Assembly (NCBI GenBank): GCA_017480225.1
Contig: JAFVBB010000002.1
Location: 1-51,976 of the forward strand
DNA: 51,976 nt
From: Bacteroidales bacterium
GTDB taxonomy: Bacteria > Bacteroidota > Bacteroidia > Bacteroidales > P3
Direction of reading: 5' to 3'
Positions 9,331 through 43,169 of the stretch are shown in pieces. Position numbers and translations under genes: made by a program. Under the pieces are notes generated by a model, which did no database searches, was not told the DNA's origin, and saw nothing but the letters and a program-made list of their open reading frames with translations. Every line of letters begins with the position of its first letter. Positions within the stretch are counted from its first letter, which is position 1.

Positions 9331-9455
9331 CAAAAAAAAACTCACCCGCGCGAAAAATATTGTCCCACAGCCCCAGTGCGCCGCGGCCACGGTGCCCGGA
9401 TGGCGCCGCCGGCGTCCCCCTCCTGAGGCGTGCTGACACCGTGTCAACACCGTCT

Positions 9456-9546
9456 GTTCTTCGATTGTTCTCCGATTGTTCTTCGATTGTTCTTCGATTT
9501 AGTGTCGAAGAACAATCGAAGAACAATCGGACATCAATCGCAGAAC
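9456..9546. repeat. Palindromic 11-mer array, copy 1
   Basis: The left arm is four 11-bp units (GTTCTTCGATT, GTTCTCCGATT, then two more GTTCTTCGATT; 9456-9499). The loop is TAG (9500-9502). The right arm is four inverted units: TGTCGAAGAAC, AATCGAAGAAC, AATCGGACATC and AATCGCAGAAC (9503-9546). On the left the 11-bp phase continues into two related units, CTGACACCGTG and TCAACACCGTC (9434-9455). The array lies in the divergent gap between miaB and ribE. The right arm is the more diverged one. Confidence 0.9.
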
Positions 9547-9572
9547 ACACTGTCTTGCCGCGCAGTAGGGGC

Positions 9573-15512: not shown

Positions 15513-15624
15513 CAACTCCTACTCAACTCCTACTCATCTACTACCCAACGCCTACTTATCACCTACAAAAGTAGTAGTTGACAAGTCGTTGATAAGCGCA
15601 AGACAAGTGATTGACAAGGTGATG
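15513..15624. repeat. Diverged inverted array with 11-bp period
   Basis: Five left units in strict 11-bp phase (CAACTCCTACT, CAACTCCTACT, CATCTACTACC, CAACGCCTACT, TATCACCTACA; 15513-15567) meet at the palindromic centre CTACAAAAGTAG. Five units of inverted character follow: AGTAGTAGTTG, ACAAGTCGTTG, ATAAGCGCAAG, ACAAGTGATTG and ACAAGGTGATG (15570-15624). The arms pair only partly, but the period and mirror layout equal those of the four GTTCTTCGATT arrays, and its left unit resembles the flanking unit TCAACACCGTC of those arrays. Confidence 0.65.
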
Positions 15625-19524: not shown

Positions 19525-20832
19525 ATGTCAACGGCAATAGAGTTCAACAACATTAGCAAGCTCTACAGGCTCGGCCTGGTGAGCACTGGCACCCTGTCGC
19601 ACGACCTCAAGCGGTGGTGGACGGTCAATGTGCGCCGCCGCGAGGATCCTTACATGAAGATAGGCGAGGTGAACGACCGAAGCAGTCGGGGTGGGAGCGA
19701 CTATGTGTGGGCGCTGAAGGACATCGATTTCAAGGTGGAGCAGGGCGATGTGGTGGGCATCATTGGCAAGAACGGCGCCGGCAAGAGCACGCTGCTGAAG
19801 ATACTCTCGCGCGTAACCGCCCCCACCACCGGCTCCATACGTGCCAAGGGGCGCATAGGCTCGCTGCTCGAGGTGGGCACGGGCTTCCACCCTGAGATGA
19901 CTGGCCGCGAGAACATCTACATGAACGGAGCCATACTCGGCATGAGCAAGGCCGAAATCACGCGCAAACTGGATGAGATAATCGATTTCAGCGGCTGCGA
20001 GCGGTATATCGACACCCCGGTGAAGCGGTATTCGAGCGGCATGATGGTGCGCTTGGGGTTTGCCGTGGCAGCCCATCTCGACCCGGAGATACTGGTGGTC
20101 GACGAGGTGCTGGCCGTCGGTGATGCCGAGTTCCAGAAGAAGGCCATCGGCAAAATGCAGGACGTCAGCCGAGGCGAAGGCCGCACGGTCCTCTTTGTCA
20201 GTCACAACATGGCAGCGGTGAGGAAACTTTGCCGACAAGGGGTTGTGCTTGATAATGGGCAGATGAGCTATATAGGTACAGCTCACGATGCCGTGGAAAA
20301 ATATATGCTCGATAAAAACACCTACAATAGTGAGGTGCGTACCATAGTCACCCCGGAGATGCGTGATATAAACAGAAGTCTGAAGGTGAAGTTTATCAGT
20401 ATTGAACACGCAAAGGGGGACAATACATATGCTGCAGACGAGGACATTGTATTGCTGATAGAGGTTAAGTCTGATAAGAGCGTGGAGCATTGCAGAATTA
20501 ATTGTACGATACGCACAACGGATGACCTCTCTATATGCACTAATTCCTCAACTAAATATTTTAATATAGGACAAGGGGAGAGCAAACGATTTAGGTATAC
20601 CCTGCACAATCCAGGACTAGTCGTTGGTAATTACCTGCTGTCTTTCTCGGTTGGAGTAGGGAATGCAGAAGAAGGGGAGACAAACTTTGATGTTGTGACA
20701 AATGCTACGTCAATAAATATTGATCGGCCTCGCAAGAATGAAGAAAGTTATTTCTTGAAGTGGGACACTTTCTCATGGGGACATATCTTGATGGAAAATA
20801 GTTTGGAGGAGTTGTCGTCATGCGATATGTGA
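19525..20832 (+). CDS. Polysaccharide ABC exporter ATPase (Wzt-like) with C-terminal substrate domain
   Basis: A 435-residue ATPase with Walker A GKNGAGKST (about 80-88), signature YSSGM (about 169), Walker B ILVVDEV (about 188) and the switch His in VSHNM. Residues from about 270 form a beta-rich Wzt C-terminal domain, which in known exporters recognises the capped end of the glycan. The coding sequence becomes clearly AT-richer from about position 20220, near the end of the ATPase domain, while the first two thirds match the GC-rich neighbours. This looks like exchange of the substrate-specificity module. The gene overlaps the next one by 13 bp. Confidence 0.92.
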   Translation: MSTAIEFNNISKLYRLGLVSTGTLSHDLKRWWTVNVRRREDPYMKIGEVNDRSSRGGSDYVWALKDIDFKVEQGDVVGIIGKNGAGKSTLLKILSRVTAPTTGSIRAKGRIGSLLEVGTGFHPEMTGRENIYMNGAILGMSKAEITRKLDEIIDFSGCERYIDTPVKRYSSGMMVRLGFAVAAHLDPEILVVDEVLAVGDAEFQKKAIGKMQDVSRGEGRTVLFVSHNMAAVRKLCRQGVVLDNGQMSYIGTAHDAVEKYMLDKNTYNSEVRTIVTPEMRDINRSLKVKFISIEHAKGDNTYAADEDIVLLIEVKSDKSVEHCRINCTIRTTDDLSICTNSSTKYFNIGQGESKRFRYTLHNPGLVVGNYLLSFSVGVGNAEEGETNFDVVTNATSINIDRPRKNEESYFLKWDTFSWGHILMENSLEELSSCDM

Positions 20833-21749
20833 CCATTAATGAGTTAAGCCAAACAATCAAAAATAACTTGTGGCAGATACCGCGAGATATTGACCTCGTT
20901 GTGGGCGTACCCCGCAGTGGTATGCTTGCCGCTGAGATGATTTCGCTATACCTGAATGTTCGTTTGTCAGATGTAGATTCTTTTGCGAATGGGAGAATAT
21001 ATTCTGTGGGTGAAACTAGGTCAGACTCCATCCAAATGGGGCACATTAATCATGTCCTTGTGGTTGATGATAGCATTAACTCTGGAATGTCAATGTCTCA
21101 TGTACGAGAGAAGTTGCAGCCGCTACAGTCGGAATATCGATGGACATATATGGCTGTTGTCGCTTCATCCGAGGGAGTCCACTATGTGGATATTAGTATG
21201 TTAATCATCGACGATGAGCGAATATTCGAGTGGAACCTGTTCCATCATGGCTATATATCGCGTGCTTTTCTCGACATGGACGGAATTCTGTGTGAAGACC
21301 CTACTGAGGATGATGATGGAGAACGGTACAATCTGTTTCTTGAGACTGCAAAACCTCGATTTATCCCGACGGTCGAGATAGATACAATAATAACTTGTCG
21401 GTTGGAGAAGTACCGCCAACAGACTGAGCTGTGGCTTTCGAAGCATAATGTTCGCTATCGACACCTGATAATGCTTGATATGCCGACCCGCGATGCCAGA
21501 AGGAAATGGGGAAAACACGGAGAGTGGAAAGGACTGCACTACCGCAGGAGTGGCTGCATCCTTTTCATAGAGAGTAGTAGTTCGCAGGCTAGGCAGATCG
21601 CGTCTTCTTCGGGTAAACCTGTAATAGATTTTGAAAGTGATACCCTACTTGTCTATCCAAAAATGCCTTTAAGGCGACGGATCAAACGAAAAATCAGCAG
21701 ACTCTCTCCTACGCTCTTCTCGATTATTTTTCACGCAAAGGAAAGATGA
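20820..21749 (+). CDS. Phosphoribosyltransferase-HAD two-domain protein
   Basis: A 309-residue protein with two domains. Residues about 20-140 resemble a type I phosphoribosyltransferase: DLVVGVPRSGM and the PRPP loop VLVVDDSINSG. Residues about 145-290 begin with RAFLDMDGILCEDP, a HAD motif I (DxDGxL), and contain GCILFIESSSSQARQIA in the position of a late HAD motif. The fusion suggests making or hydrolysing a phosphosugar or phosphoribosyl precursor for the polysaccharide, but the substrate is unknown. The gene is AT-rich and overlaps the ATPase gene, so both belong to the AT-rich insert at 20.2-22.9 kb. Confidence 0.75.
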   Translation: MRYVTINELSQTIKNNLWQIPRDIDLVVGVPRSGMLAAEMISLYLNVRLSDVDSFANGRIYSVGETRSDSIQMGHINHVLVVDDSINSGMSMSHVREKLQPLQSEYRWTYMAVVASSEGVHYVDISMLIIDDERIFEWNLFHHGYISRAFLDMDGILCEDPTEDDDGERYNLFLETAKPRFIPTVEIDTIITCRLEKYRQQTELWLSKHNVRYRHLIMLDMPTRDARRKWGKHGEWKGLHYRRSGCILFIESSSSQARQIASSSGKPVIDFESDTLLVYPKMPLRRRIKRKISRLSPTLFSIIFHAKER

Positions 21750-21824
21750 GATTGAAACATAATAGTATGCTCAAATAGATCTCGTATTTGATGCAGCAAA
21801 CGCATTATTCGACATCTCTCAACA

Positions 21825-22961
21825 GTGAATAATCCCACCGTCCTATATATTTGTACAGACACCGACCGCCTTGCTGGTTCGTCAAGGTCATTATTGGCCA
21901 TGATAGATGCCATGGGAGAAAGGGTGCATCCGGTGGTTCTTTTCCCACAGGAGTGTCCTGTTGAGGATTATTATCGCAAAAGAGGAATTGAGACAATTGT
22001 ACACCCATTCTCCTTTTTGATTGAAAAGCAGAGGTATTGGCTGGTAAAGATACTAAAGAACCCCAGGGGCAGCGGGTTCTATAAAGACGTGAGGACTGAC
22101 ATCGAGTGTTGTCGGTTTGTGAAAAGAAAGTTGTCAGGACGCGGGATCAGCCTTGTTCACACTAATGTGTCAGTTGCTGCGGTCGGCGTGCTGATTGCGA
22201 GGAGTATGCATGTCCCTCATGTTTGGCATATACGCGAGATGCTCGGCATGTATTCGAGCTGTATTACTCCGCGACTGTGGCGTTTGCTGTTGAATACTGC
22301 CTCCGCCAGGATATTCATTTCCAATGCGGTCGCGGAGAGCTGGTCAACAAGGCAACGCCATTCTTTTGTGATTTACAATGCAGTCGTTCCGGGTGACCGG
22401 CCGCCGACCACGCGGGAAAAAAACAAGACAATCCTGCATTGTTCGGCCTATCTTGAGGACAGGAAAGGGGTGAAGACTGCAGTAAGGGCCTTCACTGCCT
22501 CCGGGCTGTATATGCAAGGCTACAAACTTCTGCTTATTGGCTCCTGCACAGAAGAGCGCAAGATGGCTCTGCTTCGCGAGGTCGGTGATGTGCCGCAAGC
22601 CGTTGCTGCAATTGAGTTTGTGGGCTATACCAACGATGTGCCCCAATATTTCTCGCAAGCGTCCGTGTTCTTGATGTGTTCGCCAAGCGAGCCTCTCGGA
22701 CGTGTCACCATAGAGGCGATGTACTACGGCTGCCCTGTGATTGGCCGAGCGTCGGGTGGAACAGTCGAAATAATAGACGACCGGCGTACCGGCTATTTGT
22801 TCAAAGATGACGACGAGTTGCCTTCCTTGCTCAACGAGGTCGTTTCGAATGACCAGTCAGAAGTAGTCTCGCGTGCGCAGAAACAAGTGATTGATAAGTT
22901 TTCCGAGAGTGCTTTTTTGCCAAAACTAATCGAGGTCTACACAGGATTGCTTGATAAGTGA
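21825..22961 (+). CDS. GT4-type glycosyltransferase
   Basis: A 378-residue GT-B enzyme. The N-terminal Rossmann part has TDTDRLAGSSRSLLAMIDAM, and the C-terminal half has the GT4 donor motif SPSEPLGRVTIEAMYYGCPVIGRASGGTVEII, where the two conserved acidic residues stand in SEPLGRVTIE. Start is GTG 21825. The gene is AT-rich like the two genes before it and is separated from them by 75 bp. It probably adds a sugar from a nucleotide donor on the cytoplasmic face of the membrane. Donor and linkage are not readable from sequence. Confidence 0.86.
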   Translation: MNNPTVLYICTDTDRLAGSSRSLLAMIDAMGERVHPVVLFPQECPVEDYYRKRGIETIVHPFSFLIEKQRYWLVKILKNPRGSGFYKDVRTDIECCRFVKRKLSGRGISLVHTNVSVAAVGVLIARSMHVPHVWHIREMLGMYSSCITPRLWRLLLNTASARIFISNAVAESWSTRQRHSFVIYNAVVPGDRPPTTREKNKTILHCSAYLEDRKGVKTAVRAFTASGLYMQGYKLLLIGSCTEERKMALLREVGDVPQAVAAIEFVGYTNDVPQYFSQASVFLMCSPSEPLGRVTIEAMYYGCPVIGRASGGTVEIIDDRRTGYLFKDDDELPSLLNEVVSNDQSEVVSRAQKQVIDKFSESAFLPKLIEVYTGLLDK

Positions 22962-23013
22962 GTGCACAAGCAGTCCTTGCCCCGTTTTCTGCACAGCTGT
23001 TTACATCAGGCCG

Positions 23014-23889
23014 ATGATTTCTGTAATAATCTGTTCCCGTGCTGCCGATATTGCACCCGCGCAGCGCGAAAACATAGACGCCACCATTGGTGTGCCCCAC
23101 GAGATTGTGGTGATTGACAACTCGCAGGGCCGCTACAGCATATTCCAGGCCTACAACGAAGGGGTGCGTCGCGCCAAGGGAGACTTGCTCTGCTTCATGC
23201 ACGACGATTTGGAGATTGTCACCCCTGGCTGGGGGGGGCATGTTGAGCGGATGTTCGCGGCTGACAGGCAAAACGAGAACACATTGGGCATGGTGGGGGT
23301 GATTGGCTGCCGTGTGGTGCCCGACTGCCCGGCCTCATGGTTTACAGGAGGATTGCTGAGTGGCCATGTGTGGCACAGGATGCCGCATATGGCCGAGCCG
23401 GATTATCTGGAAAACGGGTCGGACGGCGGCGACGAGGTGGCCATGGTGGACGGATTGTGGTTCTGTATGCCAAGAGCCGTGTTCGGGCAGGGGGTGAGGT
23501 TTGATGAGGAGACCTATCACGGTTTTCATTGCTACGACTCCGACATCTGTATTCAGGTGCTGCAAGCAGGGAAAAGAATATTGATTGACCGCGAGATAGA
23601 CATTGTCCACTTCAGTTACGGCAGCATCAATCAAGTGCTGATTGAGCAGCGTGAGGTGTGGTACAACAAATGGAAGGGCATTCTCCCGCTGTGCCGGGGT
23701 GTTGACCTCACCCGATGCGAGATGGACCTGGTGACAGATATGGCCATCAGGTTGAATGAGTGGGTGGAGCATGTGACCATGAGTGAGCGGGAGGTGCGCC
23801 GCCTGCAGGGCACATGGGCATTCCGTTTGGGCAAGGCTATTCTCCGTCCGTTCAATTGGGCGAGGAACGCCATCCGTAGAAAGGGATAA
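23014..23889 (+). CDS. GT2-like glycosyltransferase, first of a tandem pair
   Basis: A 291-residue GT-A protein beginning MISVIICSRAADIAPAQ, with EIVVIDNSQGRYSIFQAYNEG and the metal-binding FMHDDLEI in place of a classical DXD. It belongs to the group in which the N-terminus reads SVIICSR. ATG 23014 is preferred over the upstream in-frame ATG at 22951. It shares a nearly identical stretch with the gene at 23947, while the C-terminal halves differ, so a duplication followed by divergence is likely. An in-frame G8 run at 23231-23238 lies in codons for W-G-G. Confidence 0.85.
   Translation: MISVIICSRAADIAPAQRENIDATIGVPHEIVVIDNSQGRYSIFQAYNEGVRRAKGDLLCFMHDDLEIVTPGWGGHVERMFAADRQNENTLGMVGVIGCRVVPDCPASWFTGGLLSGHVWHRMPHMAEPDYLENGSDGGDEVAMVDGLWFCMPRAVFGQGVRFDEETYHGFHCYDSDICIQVLQAGKRILIDREIDIVHFSYGSINQVLIEQREVWYNKWKGILPLCRGVDLTRCEMDLVTDMAIRLNEWVEHVTMSEREVRRLQGTWAFRLGKAILRPFNWARNAIRRKG
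23231..23238 (+). repeat. G8 homopolymer inside a GT2 gene
   Basis: Eight consecutive G within the codons for W-G-G (after TPG). The current length is in frame. The paralogue at 23947 has the same residues encoded as TGG GGC GGA, so its run is broken. Loss or gain of one G would truncate the enzyme after about 75 residues. Confidence 0.75.
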
Positions 23890-23946
23890 GGGTATGTGTG
23901 CCCGCTTTGTTTTACTTCCTGTCGCTAACCCGATAACTTGCCTGTA

Positions 23947-24789
23947 ATGCTTTCTGTCATTATTTGTTCGCGAGCCGCAGACATCCCTGAGGCTCAGCGG
24001 CGGAACATTGAGGCCACTGTTGGCTGCGGGCACGAGATTGTGGTGATTGACAACTCGCAGGGCCGCTACAGCATATTTCAGGCCTACAACGAGGGTGTGC
24101 GCCGTGCCAAGGGCGACCTGCTCTGCTTCATGCACGACGACGTCGTGTTCGCCACCGATGGCTGGGGCGGACGCATAGCCCGCCATTTCGACGATCCTGC
24201 TGTGGGCGTCGTGGGCTTCGGCGGCGCCCACTTTGTGCCCGACGCCCCGCTTTACTGGACAGAGCTGCCTTTCGTTTCGGAGCATTGCCGGAATGATGAT
24301 GGGCATGGTACGCTCACCGACTGCGTCTGCACCGACTACTTCCGCGGCGGGCTGGCCGATGTGGTGGTGGTCGACGGCTTCTGCATGGTGGTGCGCGCCA
24401 GCCTGTTCGGGCAGATATCGTTCGACGAGAAGACCTACGCCGGCTTCCATGCCTACGACATGGACCTCTGTATGCAGGTGGTGGCGCTCGGCGGCCGCGT
24501 GTGCGTTTGCCGCGACGTGATGCCCGTCCACACGTGGTCCGAGGCCATGGCTGGCCGGAAGAAGGGCATGGAGTTGCTGCGCCCTAACATGCGCCTGTTC
24601 CAGCAAAAATGGAGCCACATGCTGCCCTTGTGGCGCGGCATGGAGCTGCAGCCCCAAGCTGCGCGGCGCCTTGACGGCCTGTGCCGGCGGGCTGCCGATT
24701 CGTATGCGGCGCGCCACTCGGCCGCCTACCGGCTGGGCAGCGCGGTGGTGCGTCCGGTGAAGCGGCTGCTCGGCAGGTGTGGCCGGTGA
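23947..24789 (+). CDS. GT2-like glycosyltransferase, second of a tandem pair
   Basis: A 280-residue GT-A protein beginning MLSVIICSRAADIPEAQ, with HEIVVIDNSQGRYSIFQAY shared with the preceding gene, FMHDDVVFATDGWGG as metal site and a VVVDGFCMVVR segment like other family members. About 100 bp (24031-24140 against 23098-23207) are nearly identical between the two genes apart from scattered third-position changes. After that the two diverge. It ends the first block of the capsule cluster and is followed by a T-rich stretch and palindromic array copy 2. Confidence 0.85.
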   Translation: MLSVIICSRAADIPEAQRRNIEATVGCGHEIVVIDNSQGRYSIFQAYNEGVRRAKGDLLCFMHDDVVFATDGWGGRIARHFDDPAVGVVGFGGAHFVPDAPLYWTELPFVSEHCRNDDGHGTLTDCVCTDYFRGGLADVVVVDGFCMVVRASLFGQISFDEKTYAGFHAYDMDLCMQVVALGGRVCVCRDVMPVHTWSEAMAGRKKGMELLRPNMRLFQQKWSHMLPLWRGMELQPQAARRLDGLCRRAADSYAARHSAAYRLGSAVVRPVKRLLGRCGR

Positions 24790-24862
24790 TGTTTTTTTGT
24801 TTTTTGAGACAAACAGCCCCCTGCCTGGCTGGGGCGATAACGGTGCCAAAGCAATGTCAAGG

Positions 24863-24965
24863 CCGTCTGTTCTTCGATTGTTCTCCGATTGTTCTTCGAT
24901 TGTTCTTCGATTTTTAATCGAAGAACAATCGAAGAACAATCGGAGAACAATCGAAGAACAGACGG
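24863..24965. repeat. Palindromic 11-mer array, copy 2 (perfect palindrome)
   Basis: CCGTCT, four 11-bp units (GTTCTTCGATT, GTTCTCCGATT, then two more GTTCTTCGATT; 24869-24912), a TTT loop, and the exact reverse complement of all of it (24916-24965) make 50-bp perfect arms. The variant C in left unit 2 is matched by G in right unit 3. On the right the 11-bp phase continues as GACGGTGTTGG and TGCGGTGTCAG, the inverse of the units flanking copies 1, 3 and 4 on their left. It lies 64 bp upstream of the RAYT-like gene. The gap 24790-24862 holds only a T-rich tract. Confidence 0.95.
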
Positions 24966-25029
24966 TGTTGGTGCGGTGTCAGAGCCTGCCTGGAGTGGGG
25001 CTTGCCTGCCTGGCGACGGGGGCCGCGGC

Positions 25030-25950
25030 ATGATGATCCGCGCTCCATACGCCAAGCCGGGCCGCGCGCACGACTTCGCCGCGCCCTGCGTGTACTACCT
25101 CACTGTGCGCACGCATGGCTGGCAGCCGCTGCTGGGCCGCATCGAAGGGTCGACCGGCGACGCCTGGGTCGTGCCGTCGGCCTATGGGCAGATTGCCGCC
25201 GAGGAGCTGGCCGCGCTGCCCCGGCGGTTCGGCGAGCTGATGCTGGTGGCGCACACCGTCATGCCTGACCATGTGCACTTCATCCTCAACGTCCACTCGA
25301 GGCTTGCCTGCCCTTCGGGTCTGCCCGGAGTGATTGCCAGCTGGAAGGCGGCCTGCATGGAGAGGGTGGGGGACGGACGGCCGCTCTTTGCCGACGGCTT
25401 CGAGGCGAGGGTGATGGTCGACGAGGGGCAGTACATGCGCGTGTCGCGCTATATGCACGACAATCCGCGGCGGACGCTCATGGCTGCTGCCGCGTGTGGG
25501 CTGTTCGATGTCAGGCGCGGCGTGGAATACGGCAGCTACCGCTTCGACGCCGTCGGCAACGCGGAACTGTTGCGGGGCTCGCTGGTGGCAGTGCATGTGC
25601 GCCGCCACTGGTCGGAGCGGCAGTGGGTTGACTACGGCAACCGCTGCCTACGAGCGGCGGGCGAGGGGTGCGTGCTGGTGGGTGCGTTTGTGTCTGAGGT
25701 GGAGCAGTCGATAGGTATCAAGGCGGTGGAGCATGGCGCGTCGGTGGTGAGGCTTCTGCCGCACCCCATGGACGACCACTACAAGCCTGCCGTCAACGCC
25801 TTCTACACCTGTGCCGAAGGCCGCCTGCTCCACCTGTCGCCCTGGCCGGCCATGGGTACGCCGCCACCCGCTGGACGCGACCGCTTCAACTCGCTCAACG
25901 TCATTGCCGAGGGCATGGCGTTGCACAGCAGAATACTGTCAAACGGATGA
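25030..25950 (+). CDS. REP-associated tyrosine transposase-like protein (RAYT, Y1/HUH family)
   Basis: A 306-residue protein. MPDHVHFIL (residues 78-86) is the HUH metal motif in the form typical of IS200-like Y1 transposases and RAYTs, and SRYMHDNPRR (139-148) is the Y-x-x-x-N-P motif carrying the probable catalytic Tyr141. RAYTs are single-copy, vertically kept proteins that cut and mobilise nearby REP palindromes. A palindromic array ends 64 bp upstream. Beyond the Y1 domain there is an extra ~110-residue C-terminal domain (from about 195; VLVGAFVSEVEQSI, CAEGRLLHLSPWP) with an alternating strand-helix look that I cannot assign. The stop overlaps the next capsule gene as ATGA. It might instead be an ordinary IS200-like transposase, but no IS ends are seen. 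Confidence 0.85.
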   Translation: MMIRAPYAKPGRAHDFAAPCVYYLTVRTHGWQPLLGRIEGSTGDAWVVPSAYGQIAAEELAALPRRFGELMLVAHTVMPDHVHFILNVHSRLACPSGLPGVIASWKAACMERVGDGRPLFADGFEARVMVDEGQYMRVSRYMHDNPRRTLMAAAACGLFDVRRGVEYGSYRFDAVGNAELLRGSLVAVHVRRHWSERQWVDYGNRCLRAAGEGCVLVGAFVSEVEQSIGIKAVEHGASVVRLLPHPMDDHYKPAVNAFYTCAEGRLLHLSPWPAMGTPPPAGRDRFNSLNVIAEGMALHSRILSNG

Positions 25951-26750
25951 TACCAAAGATAATACACTATTGCTGGTTTGGCCGTGGGCTGATGCCCAAG
26001 TCGCATCGCGACTGCATCAAGGGCTGGAAGCGCCTGATGCCCGACTGGCAGTTTGTGCGCTGGGACGAGCGTAACTTCCCTATCGACTATTGTGCCTACA
26101 CGCAGGAGGCCTACCGGCAGGGACGGTATGCTTTTGTGGCAGATGTGGCCAGGCTGTATGCGCTCTACACGCAGGGCGGGATATACCTCGACACCGACGT
26201 TGAGCTTCTGCAGCCGCTGGACCGATTCCTTGACGACAGATTCTTCACAGCCATAGAACGGTACTACAAGTTTGAGGAAGATCACATAGCGGAGCAATAC
26301 CTGCACGAGGACGGCTCACCAATCAATCCTGACCAGGATGTGCCCAACATGGAAATCCTCACCTCCACAATCGGGAGCGAGAAAGGGCACCCCCTGCTGT
26401 CGACCCTTATTGGGTTCTATTCGTCCATACAAACAGAGGCTGGCTCCAATTTGCGCCAAAGCGTGGTGTTCGACCGCTTGGTGGCGCGCAGCCTTGTTCC
26501 ATGCGGTTTCAAGTACAAGGATGAGACCCAGCATCTCTCCGACGGCATAGTGATCTATGGCACAGGCCTCTTCGGCTATGCCCATTCGCCCAACCCAGAC
26601 TATTCGGTGTCGTACCACTACAACACCGCCACATGGGATCAGGACGGATGGTCGCTGGGAAGAAGGCTGGCCCTGAAATCGGATGAGCTCGGGGTTCGCC
26701 ACCTTTATGAAAGAGTGAGAAAGATAAAGAAGAGGTTATGCAACAGGTGA
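25947..26750 (+). CDS. GT32-type glycosyltransferase (first of two)
   Basis: A 267-residue protein with the Gly_transf_sug pattern: MIPKIIHYCWFG at the start, then YAFVADVARLYALYTQGGIYLDTDVELL with the DXD metal site at 82-84. Such enzymes (Och1/mannosyltransferase-like) transfer a hexose from a nucleotide donor. It overlaps the RAYT stop by ATGA and the next gene by 13 bp, so it belongs to the second block of the cluster. It is a paralogue of the gene at 36828, with identical spacing between start and DXD. Confidence 0.88.
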   Translation: MIPKIIHYCWFGRGLMPKSHRDCIKGWKRLMPDWQFVRWDERNFPIDYCAYTQEAYRQGRYAFVADVARLYALYTQGGIYLDTDVELLQPLDRFLDDRFFTAIERYYKFEEDHIAEQYLHEDGSPINPDQDVPNMEILTSTIGSEKGHPLLSTLIGFYSSIQTEAGSNLRQSVVFDRLVARSLVPCGFKYKDETQHLSDGIVIYGTGLFGYAHSPNPDYSVSYHYNTATWDQDGWSLGRRLALKSDELGVRHLYERVRKIKKRLCNR

Positions 26751-27586
26751 GGGCCTTGGCTGGACGCATTGCCCCGCATTTGGCGCTGCTTGCGGCGGCG
26801 GCGGGGTTTGTCTTCCTGTTCTCGTTCAGCAGCTCGCCGCTGTATCTGGGCTATGGGGGCGACTCGTCGGTGTACAAGAACATGGGGTGGCTGATATTGC
26901 AAGGCGGCACGCCCTATGTGGATCTTTACGACAACAAAGGCATACTTCTCTACCTGTTCAACGCGCTGGGACTGTTGATCAGTCCGCAGTGGGGAATTTG
27001 CGCGCTGCAGACCCTGATGCTGTGGGGCACCTTGACGGTGTGGGACATGATGCTGCGCGAGTTTGGCATGGGCTGGGCTCGCTATGCCGCCATCGCTGTG
27101 GCTCTGCTGGTTCTGCTTCTCTACTATGAGGGGGGCGGACTGACTGAGGATTTGAGCCTGCTTTTCATCAGTGTGCCGCTCTACATCTGGGTGAAGGCTG
27201 AGCGTCGCGATGCGGAGATACCGATGAGGGGGTGGCTGGCTATGGGCTTGTGTGCGGGGACGCTGGCATTCATCCGTATCAACAATGTGCTGCCTTTTGC
27301 AGGCTTTTACTTGTGGAGTCTGGGCGAGATGGCTGTAGGCCGCAAATGGAAGCTGTTGGCCAGGTCGTTGGGAATGGCAGCCGCCGGTTTTGCAGTGGTG
27401 GCGGCCTTGTGTGTGGGCTATGTTGCGGCCGCATTCGGATGGCCGGGAGTGGCAGCCATGTTCGACTGGATGTTCGCGAAGAACTTTTCGCGCATACTTT
27501 TCCACAGCGACCGTGGGGCAACCCTGAATGGATACGTCGCTGTATTACCCCCCCCTGTTCGTTTTGTTGCTGATAATCATGTGTAA
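26738..27586 (+). CDS. GT-C-like membrane glycosyltransferase, N-terminal part (frameshifted)
   Basis: A 282-residue frame with about seven hydrophobic helices. A DSSVYKNMGWLILQGGTPYVDLYDNKG loop after the first helix carries acidic residues, as in Pmt/ArnT-like GT-C enzymes that use polyprenyl-linked sugars. The frame runs through a C8 run at 27548-27555 and stops at 27584-27586. The neighbouring +1 frame (27528-28184) continues the membrane pattern. Removing one C would join them into about 481 residues, reading VLPPLFVLLLIIM across the joint. The gene is therefore either phase-off, recently broken, or affected by a sequence error. It overlaps the GT32 gene by 13 bp. Confidence 0.75.
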   Translation: MQQVRALAGRIAPHLALLAAAAGFVFLFSFSSSPLYLGYGGDSSVYKNMGWLILQGGTPYVDLYDNKGILLYLFNALGLLISPQWGICALQTLMLWGTLTVWDMMLREFGMGWARYAAIAVALLVLLLYYEGGGLTEDLSLLFISVPLYIWVKAERRDAEIPMRGWLAMGLCAGTLAFIRINNVLPFAGFYLWSLGEMAVGRKWKLLARSLGMAAAGFAVVAALCVGYVAAAFGWPGVAAMFDWMFAKNFSRILFHSDRGATLNGYVAVLPPPVRFVADNHV

Positions 27587-28184
27587 GCGTAGGAAGTCGG
27601 CATATATTGTCCCTGTGGCTTTTGCCGTGCTCTGTTGCCTGGTGTCGGTGGCACTGCGTCCGTTCCCGCACTACGTGATGGCAATTGTTCCGGTGATGGT
27701 GGTGGTGCTTGGGGTGTCGGATGTGCGGCACAAGTGGCTGTGGGTGGTGTTTTTGTGCGTCATTAATCGTGGCGAGTTGTATTCCTCGGTCATGCGTGTT
27801 CGCCGTGAGGTTTGTCTGCACAGGGTGTGGTACAAGGAGGGATATGAGAGGTTCGATGCTTTTGTGGATGGATTGTCCGAGGAAGAACGTGGAAGCATGT
27901 TCAATTTTATTGACTGGCAGGGATTGAGCCTTATGAATCGCAAGGGGGTGGTGCAGTGCAACCGCAATACGATAACCGATGCCGAGGAAGAGTTCCACCG
28001 GATGCGCTCTTGTGGAGATGCGGAGGCGATGCCAAGATGGGTCATCGTCAGCACAGCGGGAAAGATTGCTGATACGACGAGGGCATACCTGGCGCAGCAT
28101 TACACTGACACCGTTGATATTGGAGATGTGGCGTGGAGCCATGTCTATTGTCTGGGTATTGACGTCGGAACATATAGCGATTGA
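27528..28184 (+). CDS. GT-C-like membrane glycosyltransferase, C-terminal part (frameshifted)
   Basis: A 218-residue frame opening at ATG 27528 inside the preceding gene, only because that frame has a TGA immediately before. It starts with two or three helices (YYPPLFVLLLIIMC, AYIVPVAFAVLCCLVSVAL and the following PHYVMAIVPVMVVVLGV) and ends in a soluble domain of about 120 residues. It is best read as the C-terminal part of the gene at 26738, displaced by one base at the C8 tract. Separate translation from ATG 27528 cannot be excluded. The next gene starts 5 bp after its stop. Confidence 0.65.
   Translation: MDTSLYYPPLFVLLLIIMCKRRKSAYIVPVAFAVLCCLVSVALRPFPHYVMAIVPVMVVVLGVSDVRHKWLWVVFLCVINRGELYSSVMRVRREVCLHRVWYKEGYERFDAFVDGLSEEERGSMFNFIDWQGLSLMNRKGVVQCNRNTITDAEEEFHRMRSCGDAEAMPRWVIVSTAGKIADTTRAYLAQHYTDTVDIGDVAWSHVYCLGIDVGTYSD
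27548..27555 (+). repeat. C8 homopolymer at the frameshift
   Basis: Eight consecutive C inside the 58-bp window where both reading frames are open. Seven (or ten) C would restore one continuous membrane protein, while eight puts translation into a stop 29 bp later. Both the position and the composition fit slipped-strand phase variation. Confidence 0.75.
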
Positions 28185-28189
28185 GGATT

Positions 28190-29188
28190 ATGGCACGGGT
28201 GACGGTAATAATGCCAGCCTACAATGTGGCACCCTATATTGAAGAGGCAGTTGAAAGCGTGCTGCGTCAGTCTTTCTCTGACTTTGAGCTGCTGATTATT
28301 GACGACGGCTCATCTGACGGCACACATGAAGTCATCAGCAGAATGAGTGACAGTCGGATAAGGAAGGTGCGGAACGAGTCGAACATAGGCCTCGCCGCGA
28401 CACTCAACAAGGGACTGTCGATGGCGCAGACGGAGTACATTGCGAGGTTCGACGGCGATGATTTGGCCAGTCCGCAGTGGCTGGAAAAGAACGTCGGGTT
28501 CCTTGACAGCCACCCAGATTATGGCATTTGCAGCTCGGGCTTTGAATGGTTCGGCACCAGGAAAGGGACGGTTCGCTACCCGGAACGACATGCGGACAGC
28601 ATGTGCCAGATGCTCTTTGGGTGCACGGTAATTGTCCCTGTGATGAGGCTCAGTGTTATTGAGTCCAGTGGCCTGCGTTATCGTCCGTCGGCGTTCCCGG
28701 CAGAAGATTATGACTTATGGGCCAGTTGTTACAGGGTGACGAAGGTGTACAATCTGCAGCAGACATTGTTCCGCTATCGTATGCACACGTCGCAAATCTC
28801 CACAGCCTTGGCCGAGAGCCAGATTGTGAAGTCCAATGAAGTCAGGCTTCGTATGCTGGAATGGCTTAACCCTGACATTGGTGAGGAGGACAGGCAGTAT
28901 TTCGTTGACAGGTTTGCGCCTGGGAGGATTGAGTCTGAAAGTGATGTGTCTGCCATGCGGCAGTTTGCAGAGAGGCTGGTTGGTTACAATGAGGCGGGGC
29001 ACTACGATGCCGATGCATTGGCACGTAGATTGCGGCATCACATCAGGGCGGCAGTGTATGCGTACAGTGTGCGAGAGTATTCGATGAGGAATTTTGCAAG
29101 AACGCTGCTGTCGGGCAGAATCAAGTATTTCACTCCTCGTCAGGCGGTGCGTACGATGGCAAAAAGTATACTGCACAGACAGGCTTGA
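28190..29188 (+). CDS. GT2 glycosyltransferase
   Basis: A 332-residue GT-A enzyme. VTVIMPAYNVAPYIEEAVESVL, IIDDGSSDGT and the metal site RFDGDD (about residue 87) are the standard family 2 order, followed by a possible catalytic base segment FPAEDYDLWASC. ATG 28190 is chosen, with TTGAGG just in front. The stop at 29186-29188 is 2 bp from the next ATG. It probably adds one residue of the repeat unit at the cytoplasmic face. The base composition is moderately AT-richer than the cluster average. Confidence 0.88.
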   Translation: MARVTVIMPAYNVAPYIEEAVESVLRQSFSDFELLIIDDGSSDGTHEVISRMSDSRIRKVRNESNIGLAATLNKGLSMAQTEYIARFDGDDLASPQWLEKNVGFLDSHPDYGICSSGFEWFGTRKGTVRYPERHADSMCQMLFGCTVIVPVMRLSVIESSGLRYRPSAFPAEDYDLWASCYRVTKVYNLQQTLFRYRMHTSQISTALAESQIVKSNEVRLRMLEWLNPDIGEEDRQYFVDRFAPGRIESESDVSAMRQFAERLVGYNEAGHYDADALARRLRHHIRAAVYAYSVREYSMRNFARTLLSGRIKYFTPRQAVRTMAKSILHRQA

Positions 29189-33463: not shown

Positions 33464-33560
33464 GAAGCTGCCACACACGCTCTCCCCTGTTTTTTTACAG
33501 GCGCCCAGGCCTGCCTCCAACCCACGGAAAGAAGCCGTCATGTCCGTATCAACACCGTCT

Positions 33561-33651
33561 GTTCTTCGATTGTTCTTCGATTGTTCTTCGATTGTTCTTC
33601 GATTACAAATCGAAGAACAATCGGACATCAATCGAAGAACAATCGAAAAAC
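33561..33651. repeat. Palindromic 11-mer array, copy 3
   Basis: Four identical left units GTTCTTCGATT (33561-33604), an ACA loop, and right units AATCGAAGAAC, AATCGGACATC, AATCGAAGAAC and AATCGAAAAAC (33608-33651). The left flank keeps the 11-bp phase with TCATGTCCGTA and TCAACACCGTC. It lies in the 310-bp gap 33464-33773, which has no gene. The remaining part after it is AT-rich (33735-33773) and may hold a promoter, but no exact TAnnTTTG box is found. Confidence 0.9.
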
Positions 33652-33773
33652 AAGCGTCCCTGGTTCCGTCCTTTCAGAGAAGAACCTGCGGTCGTTCACC
33701 GCTGAGTGTGCGGTGGATAAGTGTTCTGGCAGCTGCATAAAGTCTCATATTTTCTTTTGTAATATTTCGTACC

Positions 33774-42910: not shown

Positions 42911-43021
42911 GACGAAAAAGGCTGGAGCAGAGGCATATATGGAGGCTGCATGAGGTTGCTGCCTGCGTAAGCCGTTCATTTACAGCGTTGAGAATGGGTC
43001 AACACCGTATCAACACCGTCT

Positions 43022-43112
43022 GTTCTTCGATTGTTCTTCGATTGTTCTTCGATTGTTCTTCGATTTTGTATCGGAGAACAATCGAAGAACAATCGAAGAA
43101 CAATCGGAGAAC
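43022..43112. repeat. Palindromic 11-mer array, copy 4
   Basis: Four identical left units GTTCTTCGATT (43022-43065), a TTG loop, and right units TATCGGAGAAC, AATCGAAGAAC, AATCGAAGAAC and AATCGGAGAAC (43069-43112). Two perfect flanking units, TCAACACCGTA and TCAACACCGTC, precede it in 11-bp phase (42999-43020). The gap 42823-43169 otherwise holds only the terminator. Two right-arm changes (A to G) would still pair as G-U in RNA. Confidence 0.92.
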
Positions 43113-43169
43113 AGGGCGTTCTGGGATGCCGCTTGGGGCTGCCGGGGGCTGCCGGTGCAGTGGGTTGGC

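Follow-up and report, generated by a model that had tools for sequence, protein, structure and literature searches.

A Dispersed Palindromic Element on an 11-bp Register in a Bacteroidales Genome and the RAYT-Type Gene beside One of Its Copies

A perfect palindrome lies next to a RAYT-type gene in the genome of a Bacteroidales bacterium (contig JAFVBB010000002.1; the window is the whole stretch analysed, 51,976 nucleotides). This palindrome is one copy of a dispersed and oriented element on a strict 11-bp register; the evidence points, with about even confidence, to arrays that are maintained as sequence and to which the RAYT is a bystander. The RAYT beside the palindrome is most likely a separate gene of glycosyltransferase clusters.

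The Palindrome and Its Copies in the Host Genome

The preliminary description of the window had reported an inverted repeat with 50-bp arms, a 3-nt loop and 11-bp units, four dispersed arrays, and a gene with HVH and Y-x-x-x-N-P motifs beginning 64 bp past the palindrome, all of which were confirmed (Table 1). Its remark that the modular 11-mer layout departs from that of classical REPs also held, the palindromic region of the aligned copies spanning 81-114 bp with a loop of 3-5 nt. When up to one mismatch is allowed, the window contains 23 occurrences of the unit TTCGATTGTTC, where 0.58 would be expected. As a single strand, positions 24830-25000 have a folding energy of -69.2 kcal/mol; shuffled sequences average -20.4 (z -14.8).

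Table 1. Coordinates of the element copies, the second-family array and the RAYT-type gene in the window.
Feature	Position	Strand	Remark
Perfect palindrome, 50-bp arms and 3-nt loop, 11-bp steps, units TTCTTCGATTG / TTCTCCGATTG	24863..24965 (core 24870-24958)	.	
Head-side extension	24842..24862	+	11-bp register kept, weaker match; register inferred from the 85-copy alignment
Second element copy	9450..9552 (core 9457-9545)	+	Flanked by a radical-SAM/TRAM gene on one side and, on the other, a lumazine-binding (riboflavin synthase-type) gene
Third element copy	33555..33657 (core 33562-33650)	+	
Fourth element copy	43016..43118 (core 43023-43111)	+	
Second-family 11-bp array, CAACTCCTACT units	15513..15566	+	Preceded by a leader resembling that of the first family
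RAYT-type protein, 306 aa	25030..25950	+	Sole P0001 or NF047646 match in the host genome
PDHVH, HUH motif, H81 and H83	25264..25278	+	Invariant in A1 and A3
Y141-M-H-D-N-P, presumed catalytic tyrosine motif	25450..25467	+	
DprA/ShosA-like C-terminal domain, residues 159-306	25504..25947	+	No consistent Pfam family

The window belongs to a draft genome of 2,053,254 bases in 22 contigs (G000), in which a search for the 22-mer GTTCTTCGATTGTTCTTCGATT with up to two mismatches returned 699 matches (340 + 359) and the backwards control none. A sample of 452 kb taken blind to the element (C1 1-260000, C7 1-140000 and the window) contained 26 copies, and the copy number of the genome is estimated at 118 from density and 141 from match counts, the copies being oriented. 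Together with 59 further copies from stretches picked around exact 22-mer matches, these 26 make up a set of 85, whose cores measure 89 bp (66 copies), 78 bp (8), 67 bp (6) or 100 bp (5), differing in steps of 11. Both 50-bp arms equal the consensus arm in five copies, including the one at 24863-24965. In the alignment, the head reads GKCMRTRTCAACACCGTCTG followed by TTCTTCGATTG-TTCTCCGATTG-TTCTTCGATTG-TTCTTCGATT, and the tail arm is variable, often through a GATGTCC unit. An assembly artefact, or local slippage producing minisatellites, would suit the tandem units and the draft state of a 22-contig assembly; however, the order of variant units repeats across dispersed copies with different flanks and shuffled sequence yields no arrays, and such an origin is hardly credible.

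A leader of approximately 64 bp (TTgaTTtacAG...TTatG...TTGTAt...aCTGAAAACCAG) stands 5' of the head in 49 of the 85 copies and is missing from the other 36, the palindrome beside the RAYT belonging to the class without it; the two classes are discrete, with a clear gap in score. Pairwise identity among the 49 leader-bearing copies is 0.469 in the leader, 0.861 in the tail arm and 0.991 in the head arm, the last value being inflated because unit matches served to find the copies and the better arm to orient them, and being affected as well by the choice of 59 of the 85 copies around exact 22-mer matches. Substitutions fall nearly all in the tail arm, and double changes that preserve pairing are few; thus, the sequence rather than the pairing appears to be conserved. 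In the favoured reading, a putative DNA-binding protein would read the head arm once per helical turn, and selection or gene conversion would hold this arm as sequence because it is read by that protein. The copies themselves would have arisen and spread through copying of whole elements.

A second family of 11-bp arrays, composed of CAACTCCTACT units, is represented by 15 arrays found in 832 kb of the host genome and has a leader resembling the one found in the first family; related arrays are present in two relatives, G031 and G115. The leader was also considered as a free-standing target site, a possibility that was rejected: 22 off-element places in the 832 kb score above 11 (shuffled sequence, 0), of which 12 or 13 are second-family leaders and the remainder resemble chance in AT-rich or coding DNA, and the best off-element score is 22.4 versus at least 26.6 for element leaders. 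Arm-like motifs lie beside 26 of 32 arrays in the host genome and beside 14 of the 70 arrays from elsewhere, the control motif occurring once in each set. Copies that are dispersed, oriented and intergenic, with two end classes and a leader common to two array families, might also be expected of a non-autonomous, MITE-like element moved by another recombinase and devoid of a host role, in which leader and array would be ends and filling and the 11-bp register a by-product of origin. BrickBuilt and PINSR are described as alike in layout and order (PMC4596501, PMC4755523). This account is possible but stays on the doubtful side, as no mobilising gene was found, and the decay of the leader while the head arm does not decay, a difference subject to the ascertainment bias noted above, is unexplained by simple copying.

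The placement of the copies bears on a role in transcription. A simple gene caller places 78 of the 85 copies between genes, with 5 overlapping a called gene and 2 at edges; stricter gene calls give 81, 2 and 2. The gaps that hold copies are tandem in 48 cases, divergent in 22 and convergent in 8, and background gaps of at least 100 bp in the same DNA number 137, 56 and 26, respectively. The gene contexts of the copies are therefore those of the intergenic background, and a terminator role is not suggested. The hairpin is very stable, and A-to-G changes at three tail positions retain G-U pairing on one strand, as might be expected of transcription terminators or RNA stability hairpins. Nevertheless, divergent gene pairs are used roughly in proportion to their number, no T run was seen by eye after the element, Rfam at the gathering threshold returned two tRNAs only, and several arrays of relatives at the GlnRS-like site described below are non-palindromic and located between the gene and its upstream neighbour, so that a function of this kind is very improbable.

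The RAYT-Type Gene and Its C-Terminal Domain

The RAYT-like identity proposed in the preliminary description was upheld by fold: the 306-aa product is an HUH/Y1 protein with a Y1 fold of RAYT type, in which both the HUH motif and the Y-x3-NP motif are present. Its match to the NCBIfam model REP_Tyr_transpos scores 29.5 bits (E 5.7e-7), below the cut-off of 80. The C-terminal domain has a Rossmann-like DprA fold. Homologues are found in Bacteroidales and, judging from locus titles, also in MAGs of Verrucomicrobia and Kiritimatiellae. Plasmid records gave no P0001 match, PHROGs and PADLOC searches gave no match, and the open-licence literature searched yielded no description of a RAYT-DprA fusion. 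Glycosyltransferase genes surround the RAYT-DprA gene in the window (19525-29188) and in the five closest relatives examined (L171-L174, L176). The fusion, whose glycosyltransferase setting is conserved, combines a single-strand DNA nuclease fold with one that is known to handle single-strand DNA.

Relationship between Arrays and RAYT Genes

In a REPIN or REPtron system, the RAYT-DprA protein would cut and move the element as single-stranded DNA, each RAYT being tuned to its own array family. Consistent with such activity, the RAYT fold has intact HUH and Y motifs, and the gene has a perfect copy 64 bp upstream of it, an upstream copy at 70 bp or less being found for only 3 of 360 genes in the host genome. 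The main result favouring the RAYT as engine is the adjacency in G031, the closest RAYT relative (43%). There, a copy of the genome's own dispersed 11-bp element begins approximately 30 bp past the RAYT stop codon; this element has no fewer than 42 further matches, a minimum given that 40 of 252 candidate places were scored. Both genomes have a single RAYT. The adjacency is one-sided and its side differs, upstream of the RAYT in G000 and downstream in G031. As the two RAYTs adjoined by arrays are the closest pair, a private link between RAYT and array may exist.

Among 27 RAYT loci with 53 flanks of up to 400 bp, arrays adjoin those of G000 and G031, about as expected from array abundance, and no array was found within 400 bp of the other 25; in the lag-11 signal of the survey, G000 stands out and G031 comes second, just under the threshold. 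The base rate for a gene having a copy in a flanking gap is 13% in G000 and up to approximately 19% in G031 (21 copies, 219 ORFs). A RAYT beside a high-copy palindrome is by itself no evidence of a REPIN system where such palindromes border roughly every eighth gene. In G115, which has two such RAYTs, no dispersed repeat was detected in 2.2 kb around one of them. The orientation of copies shows no bias relative to local GC skew of the kind that lagging-strand insertion would produce (40 same, 33 opposite, 10 flat; p 0.48). Around the best 80 of 159 RAYT loci taken from genome contigs, five strong hairpins were located no more than 600 bp from the match, compared with about 1.6 expected from locus density; none of the five has an 11-bp period, and one has a period of 9. 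Separately, other RAYTs of the genus, of the NF047646 type (L146, L147, L148), are bordered on one side or on both by palindromes of 67-77 bp (CGGGCGTACACGGGGGTACGCCCCTAC) in the classical REPtron layout, and palindromes with an apparent 9-bp step were seen at L158 (186-289), L073 (18536-18645) and L181.

Whether array copy number tracks RAYT presence, a check set beforehand, was examined by pattern and family searches in a sample of 120 genomes of the genus, and the answer was negative. P0001-type RAYT matches are present in 55 of these genomes and NF047646 matches in 82; the exact-type 22-mer was found in 17, and the unit pair GTTCTTC-N4-GTTCTTC in 35, many of them with 1-4 matches only, counts close to those of the backwards control, which gave 10 matches in 8 genomes. 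No association between arrays and the P0001-type RAYT appeared at thresholds of 1, 10, 20 or 50 matches (Fisher p 0.55, 0.12, 0.16 and 1.0). In G034 (97% complete, 6% contamination), the unit pair matches 210 times and P0001, NF047646 and PF01797 give no match; G042 (92%) has 187 unit-pair matches, with neither P0001 nor NF047646 and one IS200-type PF01797 match. When 11-bp arrays were counted irrespective of unit in two contig ends per genome, ten genomes without a RAYT match had 13 arrays in 344,401 bp and ten with a P0001-type RAYT had 11 in 339,259 bp, seven of ten genomes being positive in each group and shuffled sequence giving none. These counts are lower bounds for both groups alike because the detector misses imperfect arrays, finding 5 in 280 kb of G031 where BLAST with one element found 21. 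The proposal that the RAYT mobilises or maintains the arrays was consequently not borne out. Taken together, genome searches, Fisher tests, unit-blind counts and RAYT flanks do not support the RAYT as the engine, and a REPIN-like relationship is regarded as unlikely.

11-bp Arrays in Related Genomes

The 11-bp register is shared by relatives of the host. Tandem hits at a spacing of 11 number 26 in 400 kb of G000, versus 0-1 at spacings of 7-10 and 12-16, and 15 in G115, versus at most 1 at other spacings. Likewise, 7-mers recurring in at least three places at spacing 11 number 40 in G000, 22 in G031, 38 in G115 and 0 in G026, where no array was found in 186 kb; the corresponding numbers at spacings 8-10, 12 and 13 are 0-6. 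The spelling of the unit is GTTCTTCGATT and CAACTCCTACT in G000, GAGGGGTTAAx in G031, and ACGGTGCATGT and CATCTCTTACT in G115. Within the genus, GTTCTTC triples occur in 22 of the 120 genomes, and a search of 70 other genomes of the family found none, the constancy of GTTCTTC being imposed by the search pattern and hence uninformative on constraint. In a 20-genome sample, spacings 7, 14, 11 and 9 gave 36, 20, 24 and 12 hits, respectively; since spacings 7 and 14 are also common, 11 is not the sole period there. The similarity at spacings 7 and 14 is concentrated in G086 and G100 (L379, L384, L399, L404). Outside the genus, no excess at spacing 11 was detected among 47 Bacteroidales loci.

Arrays also recur at one place in the gene order. 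Upstream of a GlnRS-like gene (PF00749), an 11-bp array lies within 450 bp in 15 of the 30 best-scoring of 116 matching genomes (L305-L334), G000 included, and a period of 8 bp occurs in 1 of 30 and periods of 9, 10, 12 and 13 bp in none; the chance estimate is 1e-8 on an assumed background. The units at this site mostly differ, although some are alike (GTTTACCGGTT, GTTTAACGGTT, GTTCTACGGTT). Insertion hot spots of a MITE-like element would account for the site. Upstream of a MurB-like gene, an array was found in 5 of 30 genomes, G000 included, which is not above background.

It is tentatively suggested, as a conceivable though improbable extension of the favoured reading, that these arrays form a fast-evolving class in one Bacteroidales genus, in which the register and some sites are kept while units turn over between species and are homogenised within a genome, as would be expected from a co-evolving DNA-binding protein or from a templated enzyme writing 11-nt units. 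Should the register and the places be conserved but not the letters, this would be a class of bacterial dispersed arrays whose function rests on spacing and a co-evolving reader. No report of 11-bp-register arrays with species-specific units in Bacteroidales was found in the open-licence literature searched.

Comparison with Known Systems

The element resembles REP and REPIN sequences in being high-copy, intergenic, palindromic and oriented, with a RAYT-type gene adjoining one copy. Unlike these sequences, which are hairpins of 20-40 bp or pairs of them, it is a hairpin of approximately 100 bp composed of 11-bp units, it has no GTAG or GT[AG]G tag at the hairpin foot in the 85-copy alignment, its abundance is independent of the RAYT, and the RAYT here carries a DprA-like domain. 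In a survey of Y1 proteins, those of the Bacteroidetes subclass TnpAY1 2.6 are reported to be flanked by atypical structures with copies elsewhere in the genome (PMC6006769); because Y1 genes with flanking structures are thus already in print, the idea of the preliminary description is not new. The subclass 2.6 proteins are, according to the same survey, approximately 179 aa long with an NH[LIV]H motif, whereas the window protein has 306 aa, PDHVH and a C-terminal domain (PMC6006769). Y1 subclasses with a large C-terminal domain are described there as having no REP association, which fits the window RAYT (PMC6006769).

As in the CGTC-tagged REPs, CGTC stands near the foot of the element, within a CCGTCTG that is almost invariant in the 85 copies, and the report on those REPs describes no RAYT flanked by CGTC units (PMC3733652). 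The tag of those REPs is unpaired, whereas here, depending on the position, CGTC is paired to the tail arm in 56-92% of 66 copies, and the stem of the element is far longer and modular (PMC3733652). PINSR and BrickBuilt are the nearest described repeats, PINSR being compared by description (PMC4755523, PMC4596501). PINSR of Prevotella intermedia is reported as a lineage-specific intergenic repeat of approximately 188 bp in 177-184 copies, with no terminal inverted repeats (PMC4755523). BrickBuilt of Porphyromonas gingivalis, also a Bacteroidales repeat, shares the intergenic position and the order of leader, tandem array and tail, but is reported to have 23-nt units in 19 copies in one species, as against the 11-bp unit of the element (PMC4596501).

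The unusual feature of the arrays is their 11-bp register with units that differ between species. Tandem 11-bp direct repeats presenting one site per helical turn are known from the operators of PhoB and CarH. Those operators comprise few sites of fixed sequence, whereas an estimated hundred or more are present here, with species-specific units.
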